64,000 nucleotides of DNA from Elusimicrobia bacterium GWA2_56_46 (GCA_001799575.1 MGTT01000020.1:62001-126000), one strand, 5' to 3'. Positions 6,397 to 51,836 are shown, counted from the stretch's first letter. Numbers and translations: made by a program. The notes: generated by a model not told the origin, from the letters alone.

Positions 6397-7158
6397 TTAC
6401 TGGCCGAAGTCGAAGCCTTTAAAGAGGTCTTCTTCGGTTTTGTCGGCGCCGGCCGGCTGCTGAGCCGAAGCCGGCTCCGAGGGTTTGATGGTGGCGGGGG
6501 CTTTGACGCCGGGCAGCGCCTGGAGGTGCCCCTGTCCTTCGCCCACCGGCTGAACGATTGTTTTCCGCACTCCCTCAGCGAAAGCGAGAAAACCGTTGCT
6601 GAAATTATAATAAAGCCTGAAAGGGGACTCCTTCATCTGCGGCTCATAAGCCTTGCCCAGATTTATCTTCTGCTGGTCCCAGCCCGGATTGTATACAAGC
6701 TTGCCGCGCACATCCACTGTGTCGCCGTTGACCGGCAGCGAGAAGCGTATCTTATAAAGGCCCATGGTGTCGCTCATGCCGGGCGCGAACGAGAGATTGA
6801 CGGAAGCCCCCGAGTTTTCGGCCACGACGTCAACCGAACCCAGGGCCCCCCCGGCGTCTTCCATGTTCTTCGAAGGCCCCGTATCCGGCAGAACCTTGAC
6901 AGTAACGCCTTCTATCGGGTTCCCGGAGTAATCCGTGATCAGGCCCTGAATGCTTCCTTCAAGAAATGTGCCGGTTCTGACGGTGGAAAAGAACAGGAAT
7001 TCGCGCTTTCCGATCACTTTTTTTGTCATGGTCAGATCGCCCACGCGCTGATCGGTAAAATCCGTCACTTTTATCTTTCTGAACCCGCCTAAACACCCGG
7101 CGAGGAAGAGGAAAGAAAAGAACGCCGCTAAAGTTTTTACCGGAATATTTTTGGTCAT
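6397..7158 (-). CDS. Lipoprotein with carboxypeptidase-regulatory-like (beta-sandwich) domain
   Basis: A 253-residue protein with a type II signal peptide; the lipobox is LAGC with the lipidated cysteine at residue 22. The middle (GSIQGLITDYSGNPIEGVTV, then GLYKIRFSLP) looks like a CarboxypepD_reg or transthyretin-like beta-sandwich often seen in envelope proteins; the C-terminus is Pro/Ala-rich. It is the last gene of the che-mot operon, two bases after the motB stop, so it is probably co-expressed with the stator and could link it to the envelope. A TTG overlapping the motB stop is an alternative start. Function is inferred only from location. Confidence 0.7.
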   Translation of the reverse strand: MTKNIPVKTLAAFFSFLFLAGCLGGFRKIKVTDFTDQRVGDLTMTKKVIGKREFLFFSTVRTGTFLEGSIQGLITDYSGNPIEGVTVKVLPDTGPSKNMEDAGGALGSVDVVAENSGASVNLSFAPGMSDTMGLYKIRFSLPVNGDTVDVRGKLVYNPGWDQQKINLGKAYEPQMKESPFRLYYNFSNGFLAFAEGVRKTIVQPVGEGQGHLQALPGVKAPATIKPSEPASAQQPAGADKTEEDLFKGFDFGQ

Positions 7159-7160
7159 AC

Positions 7161-7952
7161 TCAATTACCCTCTCCCTCTTCCTGCGCGGGCGGCGCGGCG
7201 GGCGGGGCCTGGGAATCCGCGGTCTCCGCCGCCGGAACCAGCCCGTCAGACGCCGGTTCCGAAGCAGCCGGGGCTGCGCCTTCGGATACCGTTATTTTTT
7301 GACTGCCGCCGGTTCCAGCCCCCGGTTTGGCTTCCGGATAGGGCGTATTTTTGATAAAAAACACGACCCGACGGTTCTTCTTCCTGTTGATCTCGCTGTC
7401 GTTGGGAACCACCGGATGATATTCCCCGTAGCCTACCGCCGCCATCCGCTTCGGCGGAAAATTTTTTTCAAGGAGATACATCACCACATTGGTGGCCCTG
7501 CCGGTGGACAACTCCCAATTGGAAGCGAACTGCCTGGTGAAGATCGGGACATTGTCGGTATGGCCTTCCACCACGATATCGTGCTTTTCGGAAAGTTTCA
7601 GAAGCACCCCGGAAAGCTTGTCCATCTGACCTTTCATCTGGTCGGTCAGCTCGGCCCTGCCGCTTTCAAAAAAGGCCACCTGGCTCTGCTCTTCAAGGGT
7701 GATGCGCATACCCTCTTTATCCATGAGAACCTGGCCCTGCATCTGGCCGTCCTTGATCATCTCCTGGACGTCCTGCTGGGCCTTCTGCATATCCTTGTTG
7801 AGGGCCGCGGAGAGGGCGTAGAGAATGACGAAAAAACAAACCAGTTCCGTCATCAGATCCGCGTAATTGACCAGCCATGGAGGGGCGGGGTGCCCGATCT
7901 GGGACACCCTGGGGTCGTCTTCCGCGATCATCCCCCTGACTTTTAGAGCCAT
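7161..7952 (-). CDS. motB: MotB stator protein
   Basis: A 263-residue protein with one membrane helix (about residues 25-48) and a periplasmic OmpA-like peptidoglycan-binding domain (about 85-205; motifs EGHTDN and NRKKNRRV). Asp32 in NYADLMT is at the place of the proton-binding Asp of flagellar MotB, so the stator should be ion-conducting. The C-terminus has an extra 55-residue Ala/Pro/Glu tail. It pairs with motA upstream and is followed by a lipoprotein. MotB, rather than ExbD, TolR or AglQ/S types, is supported by the OmpA domain and the plug-like region after the helix. Confidence 0.95.
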   Translation of the reverse strand: MALKVRGMIAEDDPRVSQIGHPAPPWLVNYADLMTELVCFFVILYALSAALNKDMQKAQQDVQEMIKDGQMQGQVLMDKEGMRITLEEQSQVAFFESGRAELTDQMKGQMDKLSGVLLKLSEKHDIVVEGHTDNVPIFTRQFASNWELSTGRATNVVMYLLEKNFPPKRMAAVGYGEYHPVVPNDSEINRKKNRRVVFFIKNTPYPEAKPGAGTGGSQKITVSEGAAPAASEPASDGLVPAAETADSQAPPAAPPAQEEGEGN

Positions 7953-7968
7953 AAATACTCAGATTTAA

Positions 7969-8068
7969 GGATCAAGGCTGAAGGATAAAGGCTAAAGGCG
8001 GGGAAAATATTTTTATTTCTCTGCGTCTTTTCCCTCATCCTTCATCCCTTAGCCTTTATCCCTACCCC
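7969..8068. repeat. Heptad repeats forming an inverted repeat between motA and motB
   Basis: GGATCAA, GGCTGAA, GGATAAA, GGCTAAA (7969-7996) face CTCATCC, TTCATCC, CTTAGCC, TTTATCC, CTACCCC (8034-8068). The inner parts are a perfect 13-bp inverted repeat (7983-7995 with 8049-8061), giving a stem in the motA-motB transcript. Confidence 0.65.
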
Positions 8069-8069
8069 C

Positions 8070-8885
8070 CTACACCGGTTTGTCGCTGGCCTGTTCCACG
8101 GGTTTCTTGGTATCTTTTTTCACGGTTTTTCTTTTAGAAGGCTCAAGATAAGCTTTTAAATTGGCCTCGACCACGCTGGGCGTCGCGCCGCTCTGGAGGA
8201 GCAGCACGCCCCTGATGGTGATCTCTTTGACAAAAAGCTCCTCTTCCGAACGGTGCTTCAGCTTGCCAGCCATGGGCAGGAACAGCCAGTAGCCGGAACC
8301 CAGGCCGTAGAACGCGGCTGAAAGGGCCAGGGCCATGCGCCGCGGCACCTGCGCCACGTCTTCAATGGACGCGAGCATCATGATCATGCCCAGCACCGTG
8401 CCGATGATGCCGAAGGCCGGCGCGTAGGTGCCGAGGGCGTTGAAGATTTCCCGGCCCACCTTATGGCGCTCCCGCACAAAATCCAGCTCGGTCTCAAGCA
8501 TGTTCCTTATGAATTCGTGATCGGCCCCGTCGATAACCAGCTGGACTCCGCGCTTCAGAAAATCGTTATCAATGGCCTTGGCGTCGCTTTCAAGCGCAAG
8601 GAATCCCTCTTTCTTGGCTTTCTGCGACAGGAAGACGAACGTGGAGACCAGCCTGGAGGTGTCCTCGCCTTTTGAAGTGAGCACCTGCTTAAGCACCTTG
8701 CCCACTCCGATAACGGCGGACATGGGATAATTGACCAGAATGGCGCAGGCGGTTCCTCCCATGACGATCAGGAAAGCTTCCACGTTCAGAAAAGGCTTGA
8801 AGCCGGACAGGCCTTCGCCCATATAAACCGAAGCGACCACGAATCCGAAGAAAATTATAATGCCGCTGATAGTGGCTATATCCAT
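8070..8885 (-). CDS. motA: MotA stator protein
   Basis: A 271-residue protein with four predicted membrane helices and a cytoplasmic loop. Helix 1 starts at MDIATISGIIIFFGF, and the third and fourth helices carry PAFGIIGTVLGMIMML and the segment ending FLPMAGKL, both close to the MotA consensus. The start at 8885 fits the family N-terminus and has AGGAAA upstream; a longer frame to 8924 overlaps flbD. The C-terminus is Lys-rich. It partners MotB, forming the peptidoglycan-anchored proton channel that would push on a FliG-like rotor; FliG-like domains are encoded 15 kb upstream. Confidence 0.95.
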   Translation of the reverse strand: MDIATISGIIIFFGFVVASVYMGEGLSGFKPFLNVEAFLIVMGGTACAILVNYPMSAVIGVGKVLKQVLTSKGEDTSRLVSTFVFLSQKAKKEGFLALESDAKAIDNDFLKRGVQLVIDGADHEFIRNMLETELDFVRERHKVGREIFNALGTYAPAFGIIGTVLGMIMMLASIEDVAQVPRRMALALSAAFYGLGSGYWLFLPMAGKLKHRSEEELFVKEITIRGVLLLQSGATPSVVEANLKAYLEPSKRKTVKKDTKKPVEQASDKPV

Positions 8886-8910
8886 AAAGAATTTCCTGTT
8901 TTTTGCGCCG

Positions 8911-9135
8911 CTACTTCTTCTCAAACCCTTCTATCGGGTTGATGCACTTTCTGTCGGCGTACACCTTTTTCTTGTATTCGACGACCTTATCCACCACTTC
9001 CTGCACCGAGTCCTTTACCAGGTACCGGTTGCCGGTGGCCAAGCTCAGCACGGTATCGGGAGAGGCCTCCACGCTTTCTATAAGTTCGGCGTTGACCACT
9101 ATCTCCGTGCCGTTCAATTTGCGGAGTTTTATCAT
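8911..9135 (-). CDS. flbD: FlbD/SwrD family protein
   Basis: A 74-residue protein starting [20 protein letters not shown], with [20 protein letters not shown]: the FlbD/SwrD signature. In flagellated bacteria it sits before motA and raises stator output (SwrD in Bacillus). Its ATG overlaps the MCP stop codon by four bases, and motA follows, so the flbD-motA-motB order of flagellar operons is kept even though no filament genes are present here. Confidence 0.92.
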
Positions 9136-10412
9136 TGGCCCTGTTTCTCCGGTTCTTCCGACTCGAATTTAAATTTGTTCAGTTCCCCCTGGAGATCGGA
9201 GGCGCCCATGGCCAGTTTTTCCACAATGCCCGAGATCTGGGTTATGGCGGCCGTCTGCTCCTCGGCGCCGGCCGTCACTTCCTCGGCGGAGGCCGCAGTC
9301 TCCTCCGAAGTGGCCGCTATGGCCTCCACCTGCGCGCTTATTCCTTTTATCGCCCCCACCATTTCGCCGTAGCCGTCCTGCATCTTGATCATAAGTTCCA
9401 GCACCGCTCTTGTTTCCTCCACCGCCTTGGAAGAGGCCTGAACCACGCCCAGCATGTCGGTCTGGATCTCCTTGATTATCCGGGAGATCTTCTCGGCCGA
9501 CTGGCTGGAGGATTCGGCCAGCTTCCTGACTTCGTCGGCCACCACGGCGAACCCCCGGCCCGCTTCTCCGGCGCGCGCGGACTCTATCGCGGCGTTCAGA
9601 GCCAGAAGATTGGTCTGATCGGATATTTTAGTGATCAGCCCGACTATTTCCGAGATTTCCTGGGAACGCTGGTTGAGTTTGGTCACAGACCGGCCCGTGG
9701 TCTCGGTGATTATCTGCACGCTCCTAAAGTTTTCCAGTACCCTGGAGATGTTAGTGCTCCCGGATTCCACCGATTTATTGGCGCCCTGCGCGAGAACGGT
9801 TATCTCCTGGGTGCTTTTTGCCACCTGCGACGTGGCCGTGGCTATCTGCTGGATGGAGTTCTGTATCTGTCCCATATTCCGGGAGGCCTGACCAGTGGTC
9901 GCCGCAACCGATATCACCGTGGTATTGGTGTCGCCGGACAGCTTGTGCGCCACTCCCATAAAATCCTTGAGATGAGCCACCATACTGTTGAAACTGTCCC
10001 CCATAAGTTCGAATTCATCCCCGCTTTTTATGGATTCGATGTTTGCGGTAAGATCTCCGCCCTTAACTTCATCTATAGATTTCAGAATCTTTTCCACGGG
10101 CACTCTTATGCTTCTGATGACAGCAAGGCCGCCGAAGATTGAGACGATAACTATCAAAAACGTTATGGAGAGTATAAGAGTCGTCGCCTGCCGCGAGATA
10201 CGGATGATTTTATCGTACGCCGCCGTTTCGGCCGCGGTAAGAAAACCGCCCGCCTCGCACGCCGCTTTAAACTCTCCTGACGCGCTTTGCACCCTTGACA
10301 TCGTAACCACGAACATGGAGGCCGCCGTCAAAATCAGGAATATCGCGAACGCAAGACCGATCGTCAGTTTCTTCCCCAACTCCATTTTTGCGACAGCCTT
10401 CTCCCGCGCCAT
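9132..10412 (-). CDS. Methyl-accepting chemotaxis protein
   Basis: A 426-residue receptor: membrane helix about 15-37, a very short periplasmic loop of about 35 residues, a second helix about 76-98, HAMP about 99-150, then the signalling coiled coil with the conserved hairpin ([20 protein letters not shown], then [13 protein letters not shown]). The small sensor part suggests it reads a membrane, redox or intracellular cue or relays from another protein. There is no C-terminal CheR-tethering pentapeptide. AGGAGG five bases before the ATG at 10412 supports the start. It is co-transcribed with cheD, cheC and the stator genes. Confidence 0.95.
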
Positions 10413-10484
10413 CAGAGCCTCCTACCGCCATCCAACGGATATTTTAGCCTTTTATGCCGGAAAATCAGAGCGTTATTTTACAGT

Positions 10485-10889
10485 TCAGGCCGCCGGCTTG
10501 GGAAGCAGCTGTTCGAACTTGGGCTTGAGTTTTTCCTTTGTCACAGGCTTGATGACATAGGCGTTCACGCCCACCTGGAAGCCTTTCTCCAGCCCGGCGC
10601 CGGAGGAGTCTCCCGTGGCCATAATGACCGGGATATCCTTGGTTACCGGATTCTGCTTCAGCCTCAGACAGGTTTCCCAGCCGTCCATCTCAGGCATCAT
10701 GCAGTCCAGCAGGATCAGGAGCGGCGGCTCTTTCTCCGCTATGGCCAGGGCATCGGCCCCACTGTTGGCGAAAACCACCTCGTAGCCAAGCTGCCGGACC
10801 TCAAAGCCCTGCGTCTGCTGGATCAGGCGGGAATCATCCACCACCAGTATCTTGTTCGACGGTTTCGGTTTGCTCGAAAATAATCCCAT
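10485..10889 (-). CDS. CheY-like single-domain response regulator
   Basis: A 134-residue receiver. Asp18/Asp19 (VVDDS) form the acidic pocket, Asp62 (LLDCMMPEMDG) is the phosphoacceptor, and the conserved lysine is in VIKPVTK. AGGGGG before the ATG at 10889 decides the start; a GTG at 10904 is weaker. It has no output domain and lies between cheD and the MCP, so it is probably a second CheY that either signals to the motor or serves as a phosphate sink. Confidence 0.9.
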   Translation of the reverse strand: MGLFSSKPKPSNKILVVDDSRLIQQTQGFEVRQLGYEVVFANSGADALAIAEKEPPLLILLDCMMPEMDGWETCLRLKQNPVTKDIPVIMATGDSSGAGLEKGFQVGVNAYVIKPVTKEKLKPKFEQLLPKPAA

Positions 10890-10928
10890 AAATCCCCCTT
10901 CCACTGATGTTCAACCCGCGCACTAAAT

Positions 10929-11483
10929 TTAAATGTCTTTTGACCCGTGCTGGGCGGACCTTATCGTCAGCTTGCCGGTTTCAGTGCTGAATTCCACGGT
11001 TCTCCCGAAATTGCTGCCGCAGTCCTCGGCCACAAGCGCGATGTTCAACTCTTTCAAGATGCTTTTCGACATGGCGATGTTCTTGAAACCGATCTGCATC
11101 CATTCATTTCCGACGCCGGTGAACATGCTGGCGCCGCCGGCCATTTTAGCCAGGAGCTTGTCCTTTTTGGCCCCGGCCTGGAGCATTTTCTCCAGCATCT
11201 CCTTGATCGCCGTGTCGGCGTATTTCCCGGGCTTCAGCTTCGCCGCGGAAGCCTGCGGAAAGCCCAGCCCGGCCCCGCCCTGCACAAGGCCGGCCGGCAA
11301 AGCGTCGGCGCCCCTGGCTTCCGTCTTCACGGAAGCGGGAAGCATGATATGCGCCAGCCCGGTTATCCTGGTGTCCCTGCAATGGAGTATCACCCCCACG
11401 CACGAACCCAGGGCCACGGTCTCAATGACCGCGGGGTGCCGGACGATCTGATAATCTCCCATGCCTACTGTAACTCTGTTCAT
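10929..11483 (-). CDS. cheD: CheD chemoreceptor glutamine deamidase
   Basis: A 184-residue protein. Thr22, Cys28 (ALGSCVGV) and His45 (GLAHIMLP) match the catalytic Thr-Cys-His set of Thermotoga CheD, so activity is likely. It deamidates or modifies receptor glutamines and binds CheC, which is encoded directly upstream on the same strand. The ATG at 11483 is preferred over a TTG at 11513 that would overlap cheC. The pairing of cheC and cheD implies a Bacillus/Thermotoga-type adaptation circuit in addition to cheR and cheB. Confidence 0.93.
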   Translation of the reverse strand: MNRVTVGMGDYQIVRHPAVIETVALGSCVGVILHCRDTRITGLAHIMLPASVKTEARGADALPAGLVQGGAGLGFPQASAAKLKPGKYADTAIKEMLEKMLQAGAKKDKLLAKMAGGASMFTGVGNEWMQIGFKNIAMSKSILKELNIALVAEDCGSNFGRTVEFSTETGKLTIRSAQHGSKDI

Positions 11484-11496
11484 AAACAGGAAGCCC

Positions 11497-12099
11497 TCAA
11501 CCGTTCCCTTCAAGTCCCAGCTTTTCGCTTATCCTGGCCATAAATTTCTCATCCGGGAAAACCAGGAAATTTCCTTTCAGATTCTCCGACTCCACCATGA
11601 TGTCGGTGGTGAACAAAATAGCCGAATCGGCGACCTGCGAGATCTCTATAAGCAGATAATCTATCGCGGCGCCCAGCATATCCTCCGAGAAATAAGGAAC
11701 CGACGGGGAAATGCTGACGTCCAGAAGATTGGCGATGGCGTTTATGTAGGAATTTGAAAGTATGTTGCCAAGCTCCATAAGGGCGGAAACGCCCAGCTCA
11801 TCCAGTTCCCCCTCAAGCATGGCGGTATTCCCGGTAAGCAGCGTGGCCAGGCGGTGCCCCCCCGGCTTGTCGAAGATCAGGAAGATCCTTCCGCCCAGCG
11901 GCCCGTTTATCTGAAAATAGATGCCCACGATCGGCGTCTCGGCCCCGCCCAGATGCTGCGGGACTTCGGCCAAAGGCAGCAGTTTCATGTCGGGGATATT
12001 GATCGAGATCTTTTTATTGAGCATCTCGGAAAGGGCGTTCGCGGCCTGGGCGGTCCCGATGTTTATCACTTCTTTCAGCGCGTCCGTTATTATGTCCAT
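11497..12099 (-). CDS. cheC: CheC CheY-P phosphatase
   Basis: A 200-residue protein with both active-site helices of CheC: Glu10/Asn13 in ALKEVINIGTAQAANALS, and a second pair in ALMELGNILSNSY near residue 115. It removes phosphate from CheY-P and binds CheD. The start at 12099 has AGAGG upstream; the open frame continues much further upstream but that part is the reverse frame of the next gene. Only eleven bases separate it from a paralogue upstream. Confidence 0.93.
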   Translation of the reverse strand: MDIITDALKEVINIGTAQAANALSEMLNKKISINIPDMKLLPLAEVPQHLGGAETPIVGIYFQINGPLGGRIFLIFDKPGGHRLATLLTGNTAMLEGELDELGVSALMELGNILSNSYINAIANLLDVSISPSVPYFSEDMLGAAIDYLLIEISQVADSAILFTTDIMVESENLKGNFLVFPDEKFMARISEKLGLEGNG

Positions 12100-12110
12100 A
12101 TAAGACCTCT

Positions 12111-12713
12111 TTACTTTTTGCAGGCCGCGGCCAGGAGCTCCAGCGTTCCCGGCGTGGGCAGCAGAAAGAACTGCCCCACTATGTCGTTGTCCGCGATACC
12201 CTCGAACTTCATTTCGATTATCAGCAGCTCTTCCGCCTTTTCGGCCATCTCTATAAGCACCAGGTCGATCACGGCCCCCAGCATATCCACGCTGCACTTG
12301 GGAACGGAGATCAGCAGCATCTGATCCAGCACCTTTCCCAGCGCGCGAACGAATGAGCCGGCCACGATATTGCCTATCTCGCAAAGAACGCTCATGTCGA
12401 ATTCGCTGAGCTCCGGGCTTTTCTCGACCCTGGCCATAATTTTATCCACCAGGGGTATTGCGTCCTTCTCGGGGAACGTAAGCAGAAAACCTCCGCCAAG
12501 AGCGCCCGCCAGCCGGCAATAGACGCCGGCCACCACGGTCGAGGGGCCTCCCATGACGGCGGCCGCCTCCGAGATCTGAACCACCTTTATGCCGGCGATC
12601 TCCACCGCTATCTTCCGGCCCATCATCTGCTCAAAAGCGGTCACCGCGTCCCTGCCGGCGTCAACCACTATTTTCCTTATGGCTTCCGTGTAGACCACGG
12701 CAAACTTGTCCAT
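12111..12713 (-). CDS. CheC-like paralogue with one intact active site
   Basis: A 200-residue paralogue of CheC. By eye the first motif is lost (EAIRKIVVDAGRDAV, with Lys and Val at the Glu and Asn places), while the second (VLCEIGNIVAGSF) keeps Glu and Asn. This resembles CheC forms or FliY/CheX relatives with one working site, and suggests division of labour with the complete CheC next door. The ATG at 12713 has GGGGAA upstream. FliM/FliN-type domains are absent, so it is not FliY. Confidence 0.82.
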   Translation of the reverse strand: MDKFAVVYTEAIRKIVVDAGRDAVTAFEQMMGRKIAVEIAGIKVVQISEAAAVMGGPSTVVAGVYCRLAGALGGGFLLTFPEKDAIPLVDKIMARVEKSPELSEFDMSVLCEIGNIVAGSFVRALGKVLDQMLLISVPKCSVDMLGAVIDLVLIEMAEKAEELLIIEMKFEGIADNDIVGQFFLLPTPGTLELLAAACKK

Positions 12714-12765
12714 ATCCAGTTCCCCGCACCTGATCTGCGCGCCCGCGCTTTCCCCGGACAAAATT

Positions 12766-14988
12766 TTACTCAAACCCCACTTCCACCTCTGCCCCCTCGG
12801 TAAGGGGAGTGGCAAAACCCGCCTCCCGGCTGTTCACCAGGAGTTTAAGACGCTTCCCCTCCGTGTCTTTGGGCTCAAAAGAAATATAACGGAAAACGTC
12901 CGCCAGAACGGCCTCGGCGTCGCGGCCGGGCTGGAGCCTTATAATGGCCCCGTCGGAGACCTCTTCCTCAGGGGCGGCCTCTCTGCCGTTCACAAGAACC
13001 TTTCCCGCCCCGCCCGGAAAATCGAACGCTTCCCCGTTCACCCTGATCCTGACCCCGCGGCCCGGAGGAGGGGCGGCTGCCAGGTCGCCTAATTTTAAGG
13101 AGGGAGTTAAGGCGCGGAATTCCACGCTGTCCCCCGGCTTCACCTCCAAAGAGCGCAGAACCGGCAGACTTTCTATCCTGGTTCCATTGAGCGACAAATA
13201 AAAATCGGCGGCGGATTTTTCCACCCGCGTTCCCTCCAACTCCACCGAAATACCGCGTACGGAAAGCTTCTCCACGTCCACCCCGGCCGTTCCAAGCACC
13301 GCGGTAAGGGCCGTCCCCGGACGGATCTCCACGCGGCATAAATCAGTTATAAGTTCCCCGGAAGAGGCTTTCCTCCCGTCGATAAAGATCTCGGCCGGAA
13401 GCGCCCGTTTTTCACCGTTATAAAGCATGAAACCGCAGATCCCGGCGGCGGGGCCCTCGGGGAACATATCCCCTATCCTGCCTTCCGCATCAGCCCCGTC
13501 CAGCGCCGGGGTGAACGCGATGCGATCCCCGTCTTTTAAAATACGGTTCAGATCGGAGGGCTCGCCGTTAACCAGCGCCTCCGTAGGCTTCGGAAAGCCG
13601 CCTTTTATCACTTTGAGCGCTCCGTTCAGGGTGAAAGTCTTGGCAAGCCCCGGCTTTCCATAGATCCTCCGCCGGCTGACGCCGGCCGAGATCAGGGCCG
13701 ACAGGACGGTCGCCTCCGCGCCCTGGAAATTCAGGAGCTCCAGCTTTGAATCGTTGAGCGCCACACGCACCATCGCTATCTCGGGTGAAGAGAGGGCAAG
13801 CCCGGCCAGGCCTAGCACCACGGCGCCCTGCGGGCCCGCAAGTTCGCGGGGCAGATTCTCAAATCTTCCGGCAAGCGCCGGCGGCCTTATGCCGATCCTT
13901 TCCCTCGGAAGCCGCAGAGAGACGGAAAGCTCCTCCTGCAGGCACGGGGTGAGACTTCCGCCGCCGGCCAGCACCACGGCGAACTCCGTACGCCAGCCGG
14001 AAGCCGCTTCTCCGTCCGGCATTCCGGCGAATATTTCCTCCGAGATCCTTTCCGCCAGGTTCTTTACGGCGGGCCGGACTTTCTCCAGAAGCTCCCCAGC
14101 GGATTTCTCATACTTTCTCCCGAAGATGTCCGAATACGGAAGCGCCGTCGCCAGATCCGGAACGGAGAACGAAGAGCCTTCCGAAAAGGTTCTGGAAGCC
14201 AGCTCTTTTTTTATTCTTTCCCCTTCCGCGAAATCCACCAGCAGTTCTCCACATATGAACTCGGTGATGGAATCCCCGGCCACCGGGATCATCCCGAAAG
14301 AATCCACGCTTCCGCCCGAAACGGCGGCTATGTCCGAAGTGCCGGCGCCTATATCCACCAGAACAAGGGGCAGCCCCCTCATCTCCGAGGGAAGAACGGC
14401 CTCCACGGCGGCGATAGGCTCCAGCGTCAGATAGGAGATCTCCAGCCCCGTCTTCTTCGCCACGGCGAACAGGCTTTCCAGCACCTTTCTGGGGAGAAAG
14501 GTGGCTATGACCCCCGCTTTAAGGCTCCTCGCGGAATGCCCGAGCGGATTCAGAACCGGCTCGCCGTCTATCCGCCACCCGGTCAGGGTATGCCCGGCGA
14601 AATAATATCCGGCGGTGTCTTCCCTGAATTCAAGGAGCGCCGCCTGTACCGCCGAGAGCCTGGTCCGCCCGAGATCCTCCGCCGTTATTTCGCGGAAAGA
14701 GCCGAGGTCGGTCTCCCCCCACGCGCGGCTGATCCGCAGATTCCTTCCGGCTATGGCCGCGGCGGCTTTCGTGAGCTTCACGCCGCCGCTTTTCTCAAGG
14801 CCGTCCTTGATCTCGGAAACTACGGCCGCGGTTTTCTCTATGTCATGGATCTGTCCGGCGCGCACGGCGCGGCTCCTGTGCTCGACGATCCTGTGATCCG
14901 ACACGGAGACGAGTCCGTCGCGCGAAAAAGCCAGCAGCCCCGCCACTTTCCGGGTTCCTATGTCCAGCGAAAAAACCTGTCCATTCAT
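12766..14988 (-). CDS. FtsA-like actin-family ATPase with C-terminal beta-grasp-like repeats
   Basis: A 740-residue protein. The first 400 or so residues have FtsA/PilM-type actin motifs: phosphate 1 (SLDIGTRKVAG, residues 7-17), phosphate 2 (VDIGAGTSDIAAV, about 213) and adenosine (VLAGGGSLTPC, about 345). This fits FtsA-like proteins rather than MreB. The last 340 residues are not FtsA; they contain three short segments of the pattern VNG...DGDRI/EGAEVEV (near residues 465, 660 and 720) that look like small ubiquitin-like (ThiS/TGS-type) domains. There is no membrane segment. It lies inside the chemotaxis operon, which is unusual. Possible roles are a scaffold positioning the motor or receptor array; this is inference. 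Confidence 0.82.
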   Translation of the reverse strand: MNGQVFSLDIGTRKVAGLLAFSRDGLVSVSDHRIVEHRSRAVRAGQIHDIEKTAAVVSEIKDGLEKSGGVKLTKAAAAIAGRNLRISRAWGETDLGSFREITAEDLGRTRLSAVQAALLEFREDTAGYYFAGHTLTGWRIDGEPVLNPLGHSARSLKAGVIATFLPRKVLESLFAVAKKTGLEISYLTLEPIAAVEAVLPSEMRGLPLVLVDIGAGTSDIAAVSGGSVDSFGMIPVAGDSITEFICGELLVDFAEGERIKKELASRTFSEGSSFSVPDLATALPYSDIFGRKYEKSAGELLEKVRPAVKNLAERISEEIFAGMPDGEAASGWRTEFAVVLAGGGSLTPCLQEELSVSLRLPRERIGIRPPALAGRFENLPRELAGPQGAVVLGLAGLALSSPEIAMVRVALNDSKLELLNFQGAEATVLSALISAGVSRRRIYGKPGLAKTFTLNGALKVIKGGFPKPTEALVNGEPSDLNRILKDGDRIAFTPALDGADAEGRIGDMFPEGPAAGICGFMLYNGEKRALPAEIFIDGRKASSGELITDLCRVEIRPGTALTAVLGTAGVDVEKLSVRGISVELEGTRVEKSAADFYLSLNGTRIESLPVLRSLEVKPGDSVEFRALTPSLKLGDLAAAPPPGRGVRIRVNGEAFDFPGGAGKVLVNGREAAPEEEVSDGAIIRLQPGRDAEAVLADVFRYISFEPKDTEGKRLKLLVNSREAGFATPLTEGAEVEVGFE

Positions 14989-14991
14989 TAT

Positions 14992-15747
14992 TTAAGCCTT
15001 CGACCTTGCGGTTCCGATAAAGCCTATCAGCTTGCCCGCGGAATTTTTCATCACCGAACCGGTGAACAGGGTCCGCACTTCCCTCCCGTCCTTGGCCCTG
15101 AAACTTACCGGATAACCGGACACCCTGTTCTCCTTGAGCAGTTCGGGCCACTTCAGGGTCTTGAACTCCTCCGTGAAAATGGAGGTTATGGGCTTGCCCA
15201 GCACCTCCTCCTCGGTATAGCCGAGGAGCGTCTCCACGGCGTGATTTATCTTCTTGATCCTGCCCTCCACGTCGAGCCCGATGACGGTATAGGTGAGGTC
15301 TTTTATGATCTGTTCGGCGTATTCTTTGGCGGTTTTCAGCTCCGCCACCAGGCGCTTGTTCTCCTCTATGAGACTGGCCCTGTCGAAAGCGTTGTTGATC
15401 TGCGAGATCATTTCCTCCGGCTCCAGCGGCTTTTTCAGGTAGCCGAACGCCCCTCTTTTCAGGGAGGCTATCGCCGTGTCCATATTGACATTGGCGGTTA
15501 TCATGACCACCTGCGTATCCGGGGAAAGCTCCTTGATCTTTGAGAGAAGCTGGAGCCCGTCCATGTTCGGCAGCATTATATCCGAAAGAACCACGGGGAA
15601 ATTTTCTTCCGAAAGTTTTTTCAGCGCCGTGGAGGCCAGATCCACGCCCACCGTCTCGTAACCGACCCTCTCAAGGGTGGCGCACAGAAGCGAAAGTATT
15701 CCCTCGTCGTCGTCCACCACCAGCACCTTTTTTTTCATAGCCGACAT
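14992..15747 (-). CDS. Response regulator with receiver and PAS domains
   Basis: A 251-residue protein: receiver (about 5-120; DDDE pocket, phosphoacceptor in VVLSDIMLPNMDG) followed by a short coiled linker and a PAS domain (about 140-250; YTVIGLDVEGRIKKINHAVE). There is no kinase or DNA-binding output. GGGAGG supports the ATG at 15747. It is encoded between cheA and the FtsA-like gene, so it probably takes phosphate from CheA or the nearby kinase and senses a small ligand or redox state. Confidence 0.88.
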   Translation of the reverse strand: MSAMKKKVLVVDDDEGILSLLCATLERVGYETVGVDLASTALKKLSEENFPVVLSDIMLPNMDGLQLLSKIKELSPDTQVVMITANVNMDTAIASLKRGAFGYLKKPLEPEEMISQINNAFDRASLIEENKRLVAELKTAKEYAEQIIKDLTYTVIGLDVEGRIKKINHAVETLLGYTEEEVLGKPITSIFTEEFKTLKWPELLKENRVSGYPVSFRAKDGREVRTLFTGSVMKNSAGKLIGFIGTARSKA

Positions 15748-15780
15748 ATAAACCTCCCAAAAAAATTCCCAACTCCGCCC

Positions 15781-15808
15781 CTTAGCCTTTATCCCTCATC
15801 CTTGATCC
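15781..15808. repeat. Degenerate heptad repeat (4 units)
   Basis: CTTAGCC, TTTATCC, CTCATCC and TTGATCC in register, directly before the hairpin downstream of cheA. Confidence 0.55.
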
Positions 15809-15812
15809 TTTT

Positions 15813-15851
15813 CCGAAAAATTAGTCCACCCGAAGCGGACTAATTTTTCGG
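15813..15851. terminator. Perfect 15-bp stem hairpin after cheA
   Basis: CCGAAAAATTAGTCC pairs perfectly with GGACTAATTTTTCGG around a 9-base loop, two bases beyond the cheA stop. The stem carries an internal T5 rather than a trailing U-tract. It may attenuate or process the transcript, since the operon continues. Confidence 0.6.
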
Positions 15852-15853
15852 AA

Positions 15854-17644
15854 TTATATCCAGAGCGAAATATCCAGAATCAGAACCACGGAGCCGTCGC
15901 CCAGGATCGTGGCTCCTGAAAACCCCCTGGCGCGCTTGACTATCCCCGTGAGAGTTTTGACTACGATCTCTTTCCTGCCCAGGAAATTATCCACCACCAT
16001 GCCGGCCGACTTGGTGCCAGACTCGAAAACAAGCACATATTGCGTCCCGGACTCCGCCCGGGCGGCCGCGCGGGTATTCGCTCCCAGCTTTTTATCGAGC
16101 CTGATAAGGGGGATCACCCTGTCCCGGAACACCACTACTTCATTGCCGCCTATGCTCTTTACGCTGTCCGGGGAAAGCGGAACGATCTCCGTTATATTGT
16201 TGAGCGGGATCGCGTAGATCTCGTTTTTCACCCTCACCATAAGAGCCGAGATGATGGCCAGCGACAGAGGCAGATGCAGCACGAAAGAGGAACCCGCCCC
16301 TTTCTGCGACCTTATGGCCAGCCGGCCGTTGAAAGATTCTATCATCGTCTTCACGGCGTCCATGCCGACGCCCCGGCCGGAAATATCGGTAATGGTTTCA
16401 GCCGTGGAGAATCTTGAGTCGCAGATGAGGCCGAAAGTGTCCTCGTTCGACATCGTGCGCGCCTGCTCCTCCGTTATCATCCCGAGGGACACCGCTTTTT
16501 TCTGGATCAGAACCGGGTCAAGACCCTTGCCGTCGTCGGAAACCTCTATGAGGATAAAGCCCCTTTCCCTCCTGGCCCCGAGCGTCACTTTTCCCTTGCG
16601 AAGTTTTCCTTTCTTCTCGCGCGCCGCCGGAAGCTCCACTCCGTGGTCTATAGCGTTGCGCAGCAGATGAACCAGCGGCTCGTTTATCTCGTCAAGCAGC
16701 AGCCTGTCGATGCCGATATCGGCGCCGTAGATCTCAAATTCAATGTCCTTCTCCAGCTTCCTGGCAAGATCCCTGACCATCCTGGGATATCTGTCGAAAA
16801 CCTGCGAAACCGACACCATCCTGGTCTTTAAAACCGCTTCCTGCAGATCTATCGCTATCCTGTCAAACTCCTGGAGGGTTTCCGTAAGCTCGTCTATCTT
16901 ATGCCTGCCCGAGATCTGTTCGAGCTGGGATTTGCTTATGACCAGCTCGCCCACCAGGTTCATGACCACGTCCAGATAAGAAGTGTTTATCCTTACGTGC
17001 GTAGTCTTGGTCTTTTTTTCCGCTTCCGGCGCGGCCGCCGCCGGGGCAATCCCGTCCTGCTTAGCTCCGGCGCCTCCCGGGGCTTCAAAAGGACGTGAGC
17101 CCGCTAAATTATCATCAGGCGAGGCAGACTCGTCCTGCCCGGCCTGAACCGCCGCGTCGGCCTGTTCCGCCCGCTCCTCTCCGGCAGCCTGCTCCTCCGG
17201 CGCCGGCGGCGCGCCGGGTTCTTCCGGTTCCGCCGCCGCGGGAGCCGCCGGCCCTTCCTCGCCTATAAGCGCGGCCAGCCGCGCGACAAGCCTTTCCACG
17301 TCCGATTTGGCCTCGGCGCCGGTATCGATCTCGTCCACCAGCTTGCTGAGGGCGTCAAGGCACTCAAAAAGGACGTCCAGAGTGTCGCCCTTGGCGGAAG
17401 CCTCGCCCTTGCGCAGTTTATCGAAAACGTCCTCCATCTTGTGGGTAAGATGGGTTATCTTGTCGAACCCCATGGTCGCGGCCATGCCTTTAAGGGTATG
17501 GGCCACGCGGAAAATATCGCTCAGGACGTCCTTGTTGGCGAGATTTTTTTCAAGTTCCACAAGGGCCGTGTTCAGAGCCGCAAGGTACTCCCTGGCCTCG
17601 GGAACAAAAACTTCCTTGAATTGGGAAAGATCCGATTCATCCAT
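15854..17644 (-). CDS. cheA: Chemotaxis histidine kinase CheA
   Basis: A 596-residue kinase: HPt domain with phosphorylated His49 (VAHTLKGMA), a long Ala/Glu/Pro linker (about 130-215) in place of a recognisable P2 domain, the P3 dimerisation helices (about 218-280), the ATPase (N box LLRNAIDHGVE, G1 VSDDGKGL, G2 GRGVGMDAV) and a CheW-like C-terminal domain. It couples the receptors to the CheY and CheB proteins of this operon. The ATG at 17644 overlaps the cheB stop by eight bases, consistent with translational coupling. The missing P2 is a mild deviation seen in other phyla. Confidence 0.96.
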   Translation of the reverse strand: MDESDLSQFKEVFVPEAREYLAALNTALVELEKNLANKDVLSDIFRVAHTLKGMAATMGFDKITHLTHKMEDVFDKLRKGEASAKGDTLDVLFECLDALSKLVDEIDTGAEAKSDVERLVARLAALIGEEGPAAPAAAEPEEPGAPPAPEEQAAGEERAEQADAAVQAGQDESASPDDNLAGSRPFEAPGGAGAKQDGIAPAAAAPEAEKKTKTTHVRINTSYLDVVMNLVGELVISKSQLEQISGRHKIDELTETLQEFDRIAIDLQEAVLKTRMVSVSQVFDRYPRMVRDLARKLEKDIEFEIYGADIGIDRLLLDEINEPLVHLLRNAIDHGVELPAAREKKGKLRKGKVTLGARRERGFILIEVSDDGKGLDPVLIQKKAVSLGMITEEQARTMSNEDTFGLICDSRFSTAETITDISGRGVGMDAVKTMIESFNGRLAIRSQKGAGSSFVLHLPLSLAIISALMVRVKNEIYAIPLNNITEIVPLSPDSVKSIGGNEVVVFRDRVIPLIRLDKKLGANTRAAARAESGTQYVLVFESGTKSAGMVVDNFLGRKEIVVKTLTGIVKRARGFSGATILGDGSVVLILDISLWI

Positions 17645-18659
17645 AATATTTCTCCACGGCCGCGGCTATTTCGGAAGCGGGACGGATCTGGTCGTAAAAA
17701 CCGGACTTCACCACCGCCGCCGGCATACCGGAATAAACGCCGGCGCTGGACTCGGCCTCCACTATCACTTTCCCCCCGTATTTTTTTACCACCTCCGCCC
17801 CTTTCACGCTGTCGCAGCCCATGCCGGAAAGAACCACCAGCACGGTCTGCGACTTGAAAGCCTCGGCGCAGGAAATTATCACCCTGTTTATATCCGGCTG
17901 GATATGTCCCTTGTAATCCGTAAGATCCGCCACCGCGCCTTTCTTGGTCCTGAACAGCTCAAGAGTGGAGTTCGTGGGGGAAAAAAGCATCCTTCCCGCG
18001 AAAAGAATGTCCCCCTTGACCGCGACTTTAACCTCCAGCGGAGTTATCTTCCCCACATGCTGGGCGAAAGAATTTATAAAGTACGCCGGCATATGCTGGG
18101 CCACCACCACTCCGGCAAAAAAATTCTTTGAAAAATTCGCGGCCACTTTGTAAAGCGAAACGGGCCCGCCGGCCGACGTCGCTATCACCACCCCCTGCAT
18201 GGCGGGAAACCGGGCCGGAGAATGGATCACCTTCACCGCGGCGGCCTTATATTCCTCCAGCCGCGCCCTGTCTATCCTGGAGGCGGCTTTCACTTTCTCC
18301 ACAAGTTCCCGCCCTATCTCAGCGAGAGACTTTGAAGCGTCGGGCTTCAACACCACGTCCACCACGCCCAGCGCGAAGATCCCCCGCATGATATCCGCGT
18401 TCCTCACTCCCACCGAACTGACCACGATTATGGGCGTCGGCCTGAATTTAGAGATCTGTTCAAACACCCAGGTTCCTTCGGAACCGGGCATGATGATATC
18501 GGAAACCACTACATCCGGCTCAAGGGATAAAAGCTTTTCAACCGCCTCTTTCGCTCCGCCCGCCTCGCCCGCCACCTCGATCTCCGGATCGCAGGACAGA
18601 AGCTCTTTCAGCACCGTCCTTATGAACACGGAATCTTCGACCAGCAGTACCTTTATCAT
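17637..18659 (-). CDS. cheB: Chemotaxis-specific protein-glutamate methylesterase CheB
   Basis: A 340-residue protein: receiver with phosphoacceptor Asp54 (VVSDIIMPG), linker, and methylesterase domain with the expected Ser (IATSAGGP), His (VAQHMP) and Asp (SGMGCDS) motifs. The nucleophile loop reads SAGG instead of the more common STGG, and GMGCDS instead of GMGxDG; both are tolerable changes. It demethylates receptor glutamates, opposing CheR encoded just upstream. Confidence 0.95.
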   Translation of the reverse strand: MIKVLLVEDSVFIRTVLKELLSCDPEIEVAGEAGGAKEAVEKLLSLEPDVVVSDIIMPGSEGTWVFEQISKFRPTPIIVVSSVGVRNADIMRGIFALGVVDVVLKPDASKSLAEIGRELVEKVKAASRIDRARLEEYKAAAVKVIHSPARFPAMQGVVIATSAGGPVSLYKVAANFSKNFFAGVVVAQHMPAYFINSFAQHVGKITPLEVKVAVKGDILFAGRMLFSPTNSTLELFRTKKGAVADLTDYKGHIQPDINRVIISCAEAFKSQTVLVVLSGMGCDSVKGAEVVKKYGGKVIVEAESSAGVYSGMPAAVVKSGFYDQIRPASEIAAAVEKYYG

Positions 18660-18666
18660 TTTAAAA

Positions 18667-19044
18667 TCAGACCGTCATGCCCAGCGCCTGGCCCACCACT
18701 TTCATAAGCTCTTCGGCTTTTACCGGTTTGGTCACAAAGCCCTTGGCGCCCACGGAAATAGATTCCTGCACTATTTTTTCCTGCCCCATGGCCGACACCA
18801 TTATGACCTTGGCGGAAGGATCGCAGGCCACTATCCTCTTAACGGCTTCAAGCCCCACGGCTTCCGGCATTATCATATCCATCGTCACAAGATCGGGCTT
18901 GAGCTTATTGTACTGCTCCACCGCCTCCTCCACGTTGGCGGCCTCTCCTATGACCTGGTGCTGCCCTTTGGATCCTTTTTCCAGAAGATTTCTGAGCGTA
19001 AGACGCATAAATTTGGAATCGTCAACCACCAGAATTTTAGCCAT
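18667..19044 (-). CDS. cheY: Chemotaxis response regulator CheY
   Basis: A 125-residue single receiver with DD pocket (residues 8-9), phosphoacceptor Asp56 (VTMDMIMPE), Ser in MVSAMG and Lys in TKPVK. GGAGAG precedes the ATG. Its start overlaps the end of cheR by eight bases. This is the best candidate for the regulator that acts on the motor; the usual target FliM is not in the window, so it may bind another rotor protein. Confidence 0.93.
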   Translation of the reverse strand: MAKILVVDDSKFMRLTLRNLLEKGSKGQHQVIGEAANVEEAVEQYNKLKPDLVTMDMIMPEAVGLEAVKRIVACDPSAKVIMVSAMGQEKIVQESISVGAKGFVTKPVKAEELMKVVGQALGMTV

Positions 19045-19912
19045 GGCACTCTCCTTTCCCGTAGATTCTCTCGTCGCTGTTGTAAAGAAAAAACTTGTCC
19101 TTGAAATTGGCGGTAAACAGGACTTCGGATTTCCCCATCACAAGAAAGCCGTCGTCCTTAAGGGCCGCGTGAAAGGTCTGAAGAAGCTTATCCTTGGACT
19201 CGGTCTTGAAATAGATGAACACGTTCCTGCAGAGTATGAGATCCAGTCCCGACGCGGGCGCGGGCTCGTCGAAAAAATTATGCTTTCTGAAACGAACCAG
19301 CGACTTGACCGAAGGCTCCAGCTCGAATTTAGCCTCCGGGCCGTCCCCGATCCGCTTGAAATACCTGGCCACGTACTCCGCCGGGGCGGTGGCCAGCGAA
19401 GCGGCGCCGTAGATCCCGCTTGCGGCCTTCTCCAGGGACAGATCGTCTATATCGGTCGCGATGACAACCGGGACGAAAGACTGGCGCGCGCCGGCAAGCT
19501 CCCTGAGAAGGATCGCCAGACTGTAAGGTTCCTCGCCCGAAGAGCAGCCGCAGGACCAGATATTCAGGGCGGGCGCGCCCGCCGGGCCCGGCCGCTTTCC
19601 GTTTGCGGCGGGCCGCTGCAGCTTCGCGATTATTTTGGGGAGGACATCTGTCCTGAGGATCTCCCACATTTTAGCGTCCCTGAAAAACTGAGTCACGTTC
19701 ACGGTAAGGGCGTTATAAAGCTCCCTGGCTTCCGCTCTTACCGTCCCCAGTATCTTTATATAGCCCTCGTAATCGGCCGGGGCCAGGCCGTTTGACAGAA
19801 GCCGGGAATTAAGCCTGCGCTTTATGTAGGGTTCGTTGTATTTGCGGCAATCAAGGCCGGTTTTATCGAGCGTAAGCGCCAGAAGTTTTTCAAAAGATGT
19901 TTTGCTTTCCAT
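19037..19912 (-). CDS. cheR: Chemoreceptor methyltransferase CheR
   Basis: A 291-residue S-adenosylmethionine-dependent methyltransferase. The N-terminal helical domain (INRRL-like YIKRRLNSRL) and the SAM loop (WSCGCSSGEEPYSLAI) are clear, followed by LILCRNVFIYF, a CheR hallmark. There is no TPR extension. It methylates the glutamates of the MCP. No good ribosome site is visible before the ATG at 19912, so the start is by family length. Confidence 0.94.
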   Translation of the reverse strand: MESKTSFEKLLALTLDKTGLDCRKYNEPYIKRRLNSRLLSNGLAPADYEGYIKILGTVRAEARELYNALTVNVTQFFRDAKMWEILRTDVLPKIIAKLQRPAANGKRPGPAGAPALNIWSCGCSSGEEPYSLAILLRELAGARQSFVPVVIATDIDDLSLEKAASGIYGAASLATAPAEYVARYFKRIGDGPEAKFELEPSVKSLVRFRKHNFFDEPAPASGLDLILCRNVFIYFKTESKDKLLQTFHAALKDDGFLVMGKSEVLFTANFKDKFFLYNSDERIYGKGECHG

Positions 19913-19956
19913 TATCTATTTAAACCGAAACCAGTGACCCGCTCAGCGTTTTGTTT

Positions 19957-20454
19957 TTATTTCTCCCTGTCCCCGCCGCCCGCGGCGCCGGCCGCGTCCG
20001 CCAGCTCGGCCTTTTCCGGATCGTTAAAGATCTTCCCGAGATTAAGCAGGATCACCAGGAGTTTGCCCACTTTCGCCACCCCTGAAAGATATTCCGAGTC
20101 TATGGAAGCCAGGGAGGGCGGGATAGGATCTATCTGCTCGCCGGAAACCTGCAGAACCTCCGAAACTCCGTCCACCACAAGGCCGACGGTCTGGCCGACG
20201 GCGTCGGCGACGACTATCCTGTTCTTATCGGTCCGTTCTTTCCGGCCCAGGCCGAAGCGTCCTCTGAGGTCTATCACAGGGATTATTCTGCCCCTCAGAT
20301 TTATCACGCCCTCTATGAACCCGGACGCTCCCGGCACGCGGGTTATCTCCGGCAGGCGTATGATCTCCTGGATCTGGGTTATCGGCACACCGTACTCTTC
20401 CGAGGAAAGACTGAATACCACCAGCTGCTGAATATTTGTTTTATTTTCCGCCAT
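19957..20454 (-). CDS. cheW: CheW adaptor, second copy of a tandem pair
   Basis: A 165-residue CheW that links receptors to CheA. GGGAG lies before the ATG at 20454. It is nearly identical to the upstream copy through the first 130 residues, including LVVFSLSSEEYGVPITQIQE and the VINLRGRIIPVIDLR core. The C-terminal tails differ (Ala/Gly-rich here). This points to a recent tandem duplication with both copies kept. Confidence 0.94.
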   Translation of the reverse strand: MAENKTNIQQLVVFSLSSEEYGVPITQIQEIIRLPEITRVPGASGFIEGVINLRGRIIPVIDLRGRFGLGRKERTDKNRIVVADAVGQTVGLVVDGVSEVLQVSGEQIDPIPPSLASIDSEYLSGVAKVGKLLVILLNLGKIFNDPEKAELADAAGAAGGGDREK

Positions 20455-20482
20455 GATTCTCCCGTCCGTCCGACTATCGCCG

Positions 20483-20968
20483 TCAGACCTTGTTTTTTTC
20501 CCTGGCCGCCACTCCGGACACCGTTTTTTCAAGGTCGTTCAGCAGTTTCGCCAGGTCGAGAAGGATCACCAGAAGCTTGTCGATCTTCGCCACCCCTGAA
20601 AGATATTCCGAGTCTATGGAGGACATGGAGGGCGGGATGGGATCTATCTGCTCGCCGGAGATCTGAAGAACCTCCGAGACTCCGTCCACCACAAGGCCGA
20701 CGGTCTGGCCGCCGGCGTCGGCGACGACTATCCTGTTTTTCTCGGTCCGCTCTTTCTGCTCCAGACCGAAACGTCCCCTGAGGTCTATCACGGGAATTAT
20801 CCTGCCGCGCAGGTTTATCACGCCCTCTATGAACCCGGGCATCCCGGGTATGCGCGTGATCTCGGGCAGGCGTATGATCTCCTGGATCTGGGTTATCGGC
20901 ACACCGTACTCTTCCGAGGAAAGACTGAATACCACCAACTGCTGGATCCCGGTTTTATTCTCCGCCAT
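20483..20968 (-). CDS. cheW: CheW adaptor, first copy of a tandem pair
   Basis: A 161-residue CheW preceded by GGGGAGGA. It has the same two-barrel CheW core as its neighbour, with substitutions such as Gly-Met for Gly-Ala at IPGMPGF. The Lys-rich C-terminus ends just upstream of the second copy. Two CheW proteins may allow different array geometries or receptor classes. Confidence 0.94.
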   Translation of the reverse strand: MAENKTGIQQLVVFSLSSEEYGVPITQIQEIIRLPEITRIPGMPGFIEGVINLRGRIIPVIDLRGRFGLEQKERTEKNRIVVADAGGQTVGLVVDGVSEVLQISGEQIDPIPPSMSSIDSEYLSGVAKIDKLLVILLDLAKLLNDLEKTVSGVAAREKNKV

Positions 20969-20981
20969 ATTCCTCCCCCTC

Positions 20982-21359
20982 TTACATTTTTATCCCAAGA
21001 ACCGTTTCCACCACCGCCGTCAATTCTTCCACCTCGAACGGTTTATGAAGACAGTGCCTGGCGCCCATTTCCCTGGCCTTTCCCTCTACCTGCCGATCCG
21101 GATCAGAATCGCTGCCCATCATCATCACGAACAGCGCCGCTTTCGCCGCCGGAAGCCTGCCCAGAACCTCGTCTCCGTTCATCTTAGGCATATGATTGTC
21201 GCAAAAGATCAGGTCGTACGAAGCGGCCTGGGCCATCCCGAGCCCCTCCTCTCCGTTATAAGCCGACTCCACATTAAACCCCAAAGGCTCAAGAATGAAC
21301 CGGAACATATCGTGAAACCCGCGTTCATCGTCTATAACCAGCACTCTTTTCGGCGGCAT
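20982..21359 (-). CDS. CheY-like response regulator, first gene of the che operon
   Basis: A 125-residue receiver: acidic pair at 10-11, phosphoacceptor Asp54 (IFCDNHMPKMNG), conserved Lys in LHKPFE. The Thr/Ser switch position is in an odd context (MMMGSDSD). It has no output domain. It is 13 bases upstream of the first cheW and probably the first gene of this operon; the AT-rich stretch at about 21445-21475 upstream could hold a promoter, but the match is weak. Confidence 0.88.
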   Translation of the reverse strand: MPPKRVLVIDDERGFHDMFRFILEPLGFNVESAYNGEEGLGMAQAASYDLIFCDNHMPKMNGDEVLGRLPAAKAALFVMMMGSDSDPDRQVEGKAREMGARHCLHKPFEVEELTAVVETVLGIKM

Positions 21360-23815: not shown

Positions 23816-23906
23816 ATAAGTCCTTGTCTTCAAACCTCGCTCATATTCTAGAAGTCGGGCGTTTCATTTTAGTTAAGTAATTGTTAACAGGCTGTTTAAC
23901 TATCCA

Positions 23907-23928: not shown

Positions 23929-23937
23929 GGTAACTTC

Positions 23938-23968
23938 CTTCATCCTTCAAGCCTTTATCCTTTAGCCT
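23938..23968. repeat. Degenerate heptad repeat
   Basis: Units like TTCATCC, TTTATCC and TTTAGCC in near-perfect 7-bp register, directly after the FliF-FliG-TPR stop codon. Confidence 0.5.
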
Positions 23969-27536: not shown

Positions 27537-27572
27537 AACGCGCTTAACGGTTTCCCATATAGCCAGCGGGGC

Positions 27573-27592
27573 AAAAGCATTAGATATAATGC
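27573..27592 (-). terminator. Small hairpin with U-tract after the riboswitch
   Basis: GCATTA-TATC-TAATGC followed by TTTT on the minus strand, 16 bases beyond the aptamer and before the preferred start at 27536. It could be the expression platform, though the 6-bp AT-rich stem is weak. Confidence 0.4.
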
Positions 27593-27607
27593 GTTTCATT
27601 ATGTTTT

Positions 27608-27690
27608 TCGGCAGCCTGACCCCCGCATACGTCGCGGGTCTTGGCTTTGCGCCGCCGGCTTTCGCCGGCTTTGCTATTATCGTAACACTC
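27608..27690 (-). promoter_or_regulatory. Cyclic-di-GMP-I (GEMM) riboswitch
   Basis: The minus-strand RNA contains the GEMM core: GCAAAGCC, then the P2 stem GCCGGC-GAAA-GCCGGC with its GNRA tetraloop, CGCAAAGCC, the P3 stem GACCCGC / GCGGGGGUC, and AGGCUGCC at the 3' side. The bases equivalent to G20, A47 and C92 of the Vc2 aptamer are G, A and C, which predicts c-di-GMP rather than cGAMP binding. It lies about 30 bases after a canonical promoter and before the PorV-TPR, FliF-FliG and coiled-coil genes, so it should set their expression according to c-di-GMP. Confidence 0.93.
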
Positions 27691-27727
27691 ACGTATTACA
27701 AATACGTTAACTATTTATTCCCAGTAT

Positions 27728-51681: not shown

Positions 51682-51700
51682 GATCCTCATATAGCACACT

Positions 51701-51836
51701 CTCATCCCTCATCCCTCATCCCTCATCCCTCATCCCTCATCCCTCATCCCTCATCCCTCATCCCTCATCCCTCATCCCTCATCCCTCATCCCTCATCCCT
51801 CATCCCTCATCCCTCATCCCTCATCCCTCATCCCTC
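51701..51836. repeat. 19-copy heptamer tandem array (CTCATCC)n
   Basis: 136 bases of almost perfect CTCATCC units between the stop of the giant protein and the start of the second PorV-TPR gene. The sense strand of the flanking genes reads GGGATGA repeatedly, so G3 runs are spaced by four bases throughout: a long G-quadruplex-type motif. Copy number should vary between strains. Confidence 0.95.

Follow-up and report, generated by a model that had tools for sequence, protein, structure and literature searches.

The described systems closest to the locus reported here are the bacterial flagellar motor, the gliding and type IX secretion (T9SS) machinery of Bacteroidota, the Agl-Glt system of Myxococcus and an engineered FliFG fusion in Vibrio. 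MotAB-family motors also perform envelope work elsewhere (TolQR), and the AglRQS motor of Agl-Glt is not known to include a FliG rotor. Flagellar machinery has been stated to be missing from every Elusimicrobiota genome (PMC11257099), T9SS is assigned in a review to the Fibrobacteres-Bacteroidetes-Chlorobi group (PMC11205867), and the literature that we searched (FliG with Elusimicrobia, gliding, natural fusions) does not describe FliG outside flagella. Here we analyze a 64,000-nucleotide window (MGTT01000020.1:62001-126000; G000:C20:62001-126000 in our numbering) of Elusimicrobia bacterium GWA2_56_46, whose genome G000 comprises 2.66 Mb in 30 contigs and is 98.84% complete. The window encodes a motor operon whose rotor protein, FliG1, is a natural fusion of FliF (RBM3 and a transmembrane helix) with FliG (middle and C domains), ending in a tetratricopeptide repeat (TPR) tail. 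FliG1 lies upstream of an array of chemotaxis and stator genes, in the same direction, with a single coiled-coil gene in between (Table 1). A first-pass annotation of the window had described this array as free of fli genes, a statement overturned by FliG1 and by a second FliG homologue, FliG2.

FliG1 is a natural fusion because it combines the folds of FliG_M and FliG_C with an RBM3 fold and with sequence matches to FliF. Pfam profiles matched FliG_C (1.1e-23) and FliG_M (2.2e-11), and a profile of 44 FliG1-family sequences retrieved T. maritima FliG from the PDB set at 1.9e-60. The AlphaFold2 model of the whole fusion shows poor interdomain placement (predicted template-modelling score, pTM, of 0.35) and was used per domain only; compared with the PDB, it matched the FliG middle and C domains of 8wiw chain 3 (Z = 18.9) and superimposed on 1qc7 chain B with a root-mean-square deviation (rmsd) of 0.9 over 89 residues (Z = 16.0). 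The part preceding FliG_M opens with an N-terminal hydrophobic helix, followed by a domain arranged helix-strand-(disordered insert)-strand-helix-strand and then by a single transmembrane helix. When this part was folded alone, its top 18 Foldseek matches were all FliF, and a second-look aligner gave a Z of ∼12 against FliF RBM3 (rmsd of 2.2 over 102 residues) and of 9.1 against the best non-FliF chain. At the sequence level, YscJ_FliF_C is matched by FliG1 paralogues (best 4e-10), and the family profile aligns, along the beginning of RBM3, with the true FliF of a phylum member that has a flagellum (E = 1.9e-4). Judged by its length and domains, FliG1 retains no RBM1, RBM2 or separate FliG_N. 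The fusion architecture is common to all FliG paralogues and relatives compared, and Glu occupies the first acidic torque position of FliG_C in all 67 sequences. A 1,244-residue open frame of unusual length in G132, a genome from the same order (L057:7769-11503), matches FliG_C and is flanked by PorV-like proteins.

The stator is of the flagellar kind. Pfam matched MotA (5e-28) and, in MotB, OmpA (8e-17) and MotB_plug (9e-12); the closest PDB match of MotA1, a flagellar MotA, scored 6e-51. The channel Asp is retained in MotB, and both channel prolines are present in 51 of 52 F1-operon MotA sequences (the remaining one has a gap) and in the two other stators of the genome studied here. The adjoining FlbD is a member of the SwrD family. 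SwrD has been reported to raise flagellar motor power (PMC9195833).

The array itself contains what the first-pass annotation had listed (two cheW, cheR, cheY, cheB, cheA, cheD, cheC, a cheC-like gene, a methyl-accepting chemotaxis protein (MCP), flbD, motA and motB): 18 co-directional minus-strand genes lie within 6397-21359, with Pfam matches to CheA, CheR, CheB, CheY-type regulators, CheD, two CheC, MCP, FlbD, MotA and MotB, while the two CheW were identified by reading the sequence. The chemotaxis set of CheA, CheW, CheY, CheR, CheB and MCP thus stands in one cluster. Some neighbors overlap by a few bases (MotB/lipoprotein, 7161-7164; FlbD/MCP, 9132-9135), and composition does not single out the array as a clear foreign island. 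Nor does the array stand by itself, for the motor operon occupies 6397-9135 and 21497-27692, with a 12-kb che block within it. Across the Elusimicrobiota, the conserved order is PorV-family outer-membrane protein (OMP), FliF-FliG fusion, coiled coil, FlbD, MotA, MotB and lipoprotein; a protein whose C-terminal domain (CTD) is type IX-like often comes before them. Of 41 FliG1 loci with enough flank, 40 have OMP1 directly upstream of FliG1, 34 have the coiled coil after it, 30 each have FlbD, MotA and MotB, 27 have the lipoprotein and none has che genes; these counts were made by tblastn, as a greedy caller of open reading frames (ORFs) let antisense ORFs displace genes in GC-rich relatives. In the present genome the seven operon genes keep this order, and 14 che-cluster genes separate the coiled coil from FlbD.

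The che block is therefore an insertion in a conserved motor operon. Because none of the 41 loci contains che genes, yet these are linked to the motor both here and in G103, a genome of another family, chemotaxis is best seen as an accessory that either joined the motor more than once or was retained there in two distant lineages. In G103, the same che cluster, which also contains the FtsA-like protein and two CheC, is the immediate upstream neighbor of OMP1-FliG1; five further genomes carry a similar cluster elsewhere. CheA was found in 13 of 149 sampled phylum genomes, ten of them FliG-positive (Fisher p = 6e-4, ignoring shared descent). An FtsA/MreB-like actin-fold protein is encoded in the che cluster of all seven genomes read (this window and L184-L189).

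FliG_C proteins number five in the genome, and the paralogues again lie near PorV-like OMPs. Besides the module at 46.8–51.7 kb of the window (coiled coil, FliG2, histidine kinase, PorV-like OMP), there are modules on contigs C6 (OMP, kinase, MotA, FliG2, coiled coil, MotB), C16 (FliG3-MotA-MotB, with overlaps of 4 bases) and C2 (coiled coil, FliG2, OMP), so that two paralogue modules include MotAB.

Profile searches found FliG_C in 47 of the 149 genomes, while FlhA, FliMN_C and YscJ_FliF above cut-off were each found in one. That sole genome, G030, carries a true flagellar cluster with FlhA, FliF, FliM/N and FliG (L047, G030:C2:111000-130999), which contradicts the published statement that the phylum has none (PMC11257099). 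In a FliG tree, a branch with 98/98 support separates flagellar FliG, including that of G030, from all non-flagellar FliGs, among which F1 (98/91) and F2 (96/96) are supported and F3 is not resolved. An altered FliM-binding EHPQR motif was dropped as support, since the true flagellar FliG of G030 deviates too. The genome under study had no match to FlhA, canonical FliF (YscJ_FliF) or FliM/FliN (FliMN_C, PF01052) in searches that scored positive in flagellated control genomes; rod, hook and flagellin genes, which were not directly searched for, are presumably absent because the export gate FlhA was not found. A complete flagellum elsewhere in the genome, the counter-evidence named by the first-pass annotation, was thus sought and not found as regards FlhA, FliF and FliM/FliN. 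Relatives beyond the phylum were scanned with two peptide patterns only, hence absence elsewhere is not established. Together with the linkage of stator, rotor fusion and che genes to outer-membrane and surface-protein genes, in a genome where the three flagellar core genes searched for were not found, the occurrence of this kind of rotor in about a third of the sampled phylum genomes hints at a surface-moving rotary motor of a new kind.

The genes around the rotor point to the outer membrane and the cell surface. OMP1 passes the PorV/PorQ-family cut-off (NF033709, 107 bits versus 90). In 48 of 86 loci, a gene just ahead of OMP1 has a type IX-like C-terminal end, compared to 9 of 1,024 other ORFs there, although the motif was written after seeing examples and the 86 loci are related, some genomes being present twice. 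Pfam labels these ends FlgD_ig, CHU_C or Por_Secre_tail; the last has 8 matches in this genome and matches in 80 phylum genomes. Within the window, a 6,976-residue kelch-like protein with such an end adjoins the FliG2 module. Upstream of OMP1, from 28585 to ∼32200 on the minus strand, we read a protein with NHL-like repeats, a transglutaminase-like region and TPRs.

Table 1. Motor, chemotaxis and surface-protein genes of the window (positions counted from its first nucleotide).
Feature	Position	Strand	Basis
Lipoprotein, lipobox LAGC, last motor-operon gene	6397..7164	-	Sequence; position conserved in 27/41 relatives
MotB: plug/transmembrane segment with channel Asp, OmpA peptidoglycan-binding domain	7161..7952	-	Pfam, PDB comparison
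MotA; best PDB match, flagellar MotA of C. sporogenes	8070..8924	-	Pfam, PDB comparison
FlbD (SwrD family)	8911..9135	-	Pfam, 1.8e-26
MCP	9132..10412	-	Pfam
Single-domain response regulator	10485..10904	-	Pfam
CheD	10929..11513	-	Pfam
CheC-like phosphatase b	11497..12093	-	Pfam
CheC-like phosphatase a	12111..12716	-	Pfam
FtsA/MreB-like actin-fold protein with ThiS-like region	12766..14988	-	
Response regulator with PAS domain	14992..15747	-	Pfam
CheA, single Hpt	15854..17644	-	Pfam
CheB	17637..18659	-	Pfam
CheY	18667..19044	-	Pfam
CheR	19037..19912	-	Pfam
CheW, second copy, start probably internal	19957..20532	-	Sequence; homologue in L184
CheW, first copy	20483..20968	-	Sequence; homologue in L184
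Single-domain response regulator	20982..21359	-	Pfam
Coiled-coil protein CC1, no transmembrane segment found	21497..23833	-	Conserved in 34/41
FliG1 rotor: FliF RBM3, transmembrane helix, FliG_M, FliG_C, TPR	23972..25909	-	Pfam, profiles, structure comparison
OMP1, PorV/PorQ-family OMP with TPR part	25965..27692	-	40/41 loci
Coiled-coil protein, second module	46763..47503	-	
FliG2 paralogue: FliF_C, transmembrane helix, FliG_M, FliG_C	47493..48995	-	
Histidine kinase, second module	49052..49996	-	Sequence reading; homologues at the corresponding position of other F2 modules
PorV-like OMP with TPR, second module	50062..51705	-	
Giant kelch-like surface protein, type IX-like CTD (6,976 residues in all)	51841..64000, continues past window end (L035)	-	

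On balance, we consider it somewhat probable that the operon encodes a filament-less rotary motor made from flagellar parts, in which a ring turned by MotAB moves outer-membrane carriers and surface adhesins in a gliding-like manner, steered here by the che block. The anatomy (rotor fusion, stator and operon) is well supported, and the first-pass suggestion that flagellar parts are re-used is strongly upheld, as stator and rotor are kept and a piece of the MS ring is fused to the latter; that the output is another motility, namely surface movement, is what we infer. In this model, the FliF-FliG fusion would assemble into an inner-membrane ring, and MotAB, anchored to peptidoglycan, would push the FliG_C domains and turn it. 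Without a rod, the motion could reach the lipoprotein, the TPR part of the PorV-like protein or both by way of a periplasmic collar. PorV-like carriers in the outer membrane would bear large surface proteins that a SprA-type translocon has exported, and adhesins moving against a surface would pull the cell along. The inserted che block would steer the motor through a switch that could not be FliM-based; candidate targets of CheY are the CheC-like proteins, the coiled coil and the TPR tail of FliG1. More tentatively, and with a confidence a little short of probable, we propose a categorically new envelope machine, free of export and filament, whose flagellar stator and one-piece FliF-FliG rotor propel PorV-type carriers loaded with giant CTD adhesins for chemotactic gliding, with several parallel copies in each genome serving different surface proteins.

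The same parts might instead drive secretion, with FliG-MotAB energizing SprA-type (T9SS-like) export in place of GldLM/PorLM and the PorV-like OMPs acting as export shuttles. A PorV-family OMP beside the rotor, the CTD-bearing genes upstream and a SprA/Sov homologue of 1,807 residues in the genome (G000:C9:28003-33147, L181; TIGR04189, E = 1.8e-22, below the strict equivalog cut-off) would all fit such an engine. TIGR04189 was taken in place of SprA_N (PF14349), which missed this protein and whose count is unused; it identified homologues, all below the strict cut-off, in 129 of the 149 genomes, including all 47 with FliG. GldM (GldM_1st) was not found above cut-off in the 149 genomes, in a search whose control set lacked a positive control. 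However, SprA is also present in 82 genomes without FliG_C, and the motor is therefore not needed for SprA-type export; che genes joined to the operon in two lineages also make little sense for export. We regard this alternative as unlikely.

Type IV pili offer another partner for the che block. The first-pass annotation reported no pilus genes, which is true of the array; the genome, however, has nine T2SSE ATPase hits, including those of a cluster of pilC-, pilT- and pilB-like genes that precedes the window by ∼19 kb on its contig (L179:9221-13322; G000:C20:39221-43322). The block might thus control twitching, with MotAB-FliG separate and the flbD-motAB-fliG neighborhood incidental. This is improbable, since the che block is embedded in the motor operon here, a distant family has it immediately upstream of OMP1-FliG1, most CheA-bearing genomes are FliG-positive, and no pil genes were recognized in the che clusters read. 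ChpA-type kinases carry many Hpt domains; a Chp-type system would combine pil-linked che genes with a multi-Hpt CheA, whereas CheA here has a single Hpt and its cluster no pil genes.

Ring and stator could also maintain the cell wall or outer membrane in a Tol-Pal-like manner, with no surface movement. The FtsA/MreB-like protein of the che cluster and the precedent of TolQR lend this some appeal, but the flagellar kind of stator, the retained FlbD, the attached chemotaxis genes and the adjoining CTD surface proteins make it quite improbable. That the operon is a functionless remnant of a flagellum is scarcely credible, for although export and switch genes are missing (searches for FlhA, FliF and FliM/N), the operon's gene order and reading frames persist throughout the phylum, one genome holds five paralogues in modules with their own stators, the fusion architecture is common to all, and the tree separates the non-flagellar FliGs from the phylum's one true flagellar FliG.

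Several observations weigh against the gliding motor that we favor. The equivalent of FliG R281 is Gly in 64 of 67 sequences and the K264 position varies, so that the stator contact chemistry of FliG_C is shifted compared to E. coli. MotAB is not near FliG1 in 11 of the 41 loci, mostly on deep branches, and the locus counts are non-independent through shared descent, some genomes standing under two ids in the 41- and 86-locus sets. The 82 genomes with SprA and without FliG_C count here as well, and Elusimicrobiota isolates are described as non-motile (PMC11257099).

A stator-rotor pair that has shed export and filament would mark the flagellar motor as a separable module, provide a natural minimal rotor (RBM3 and FliG in one chain) for structural work, and add to GldLM and AglRQS a further way of driving surface movement with ions. 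Motility would be predicted in a phylum described as non-motile, and how CheY switches a motor without FliM becomes a testable question.

Compared to the bacterial flagellar motor, the locus shares a homologous MotAB stator, the FliG middle and C domains, FliF RBM3 with the following transmembrane helix, and FlbD beside motAB. It differs in that the FliF piece and FliG form one protein with a TPR tail, that RBM1/RBM2, FliG_N, FliM, FliN and FlhA are lacking, and that the genes adjoin a PorV-like OMP and CTD surface proteins. With the T9SS/gliding machinery of Bacteroidota (GldLM, SprA, PorV, SprB) it has a SprA homologue and PorV-family proteins in common and, we propose, the logic of an ion-driven inner-membrane motor moving outer-membrane carriers of giant type IX-CTD adhesins (PMC12635249, PMC9389320), whereas the motor here is MotAB with FliF-FliG, and GldM was not found. 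Myxococcus Agl-Glt likewise uses a Mot/Tol-family motor without a flagellum, there in an envelope-spanning complex, and some F3-type modules (L050, L059) carry one MotA and two MotB genes, as in AglR/AglQ/AglS; MotA1, in contrast, is closest to flagellar MotA. Finally, engineered Vibrio FliFG (PMC11481574) also links the MS-ring protein covalently to FliG, but joins full proteins in flagellated cells, while the fusion described here is natural, shortened and encoded in a genome lacking those flagellar core genes that were sought.

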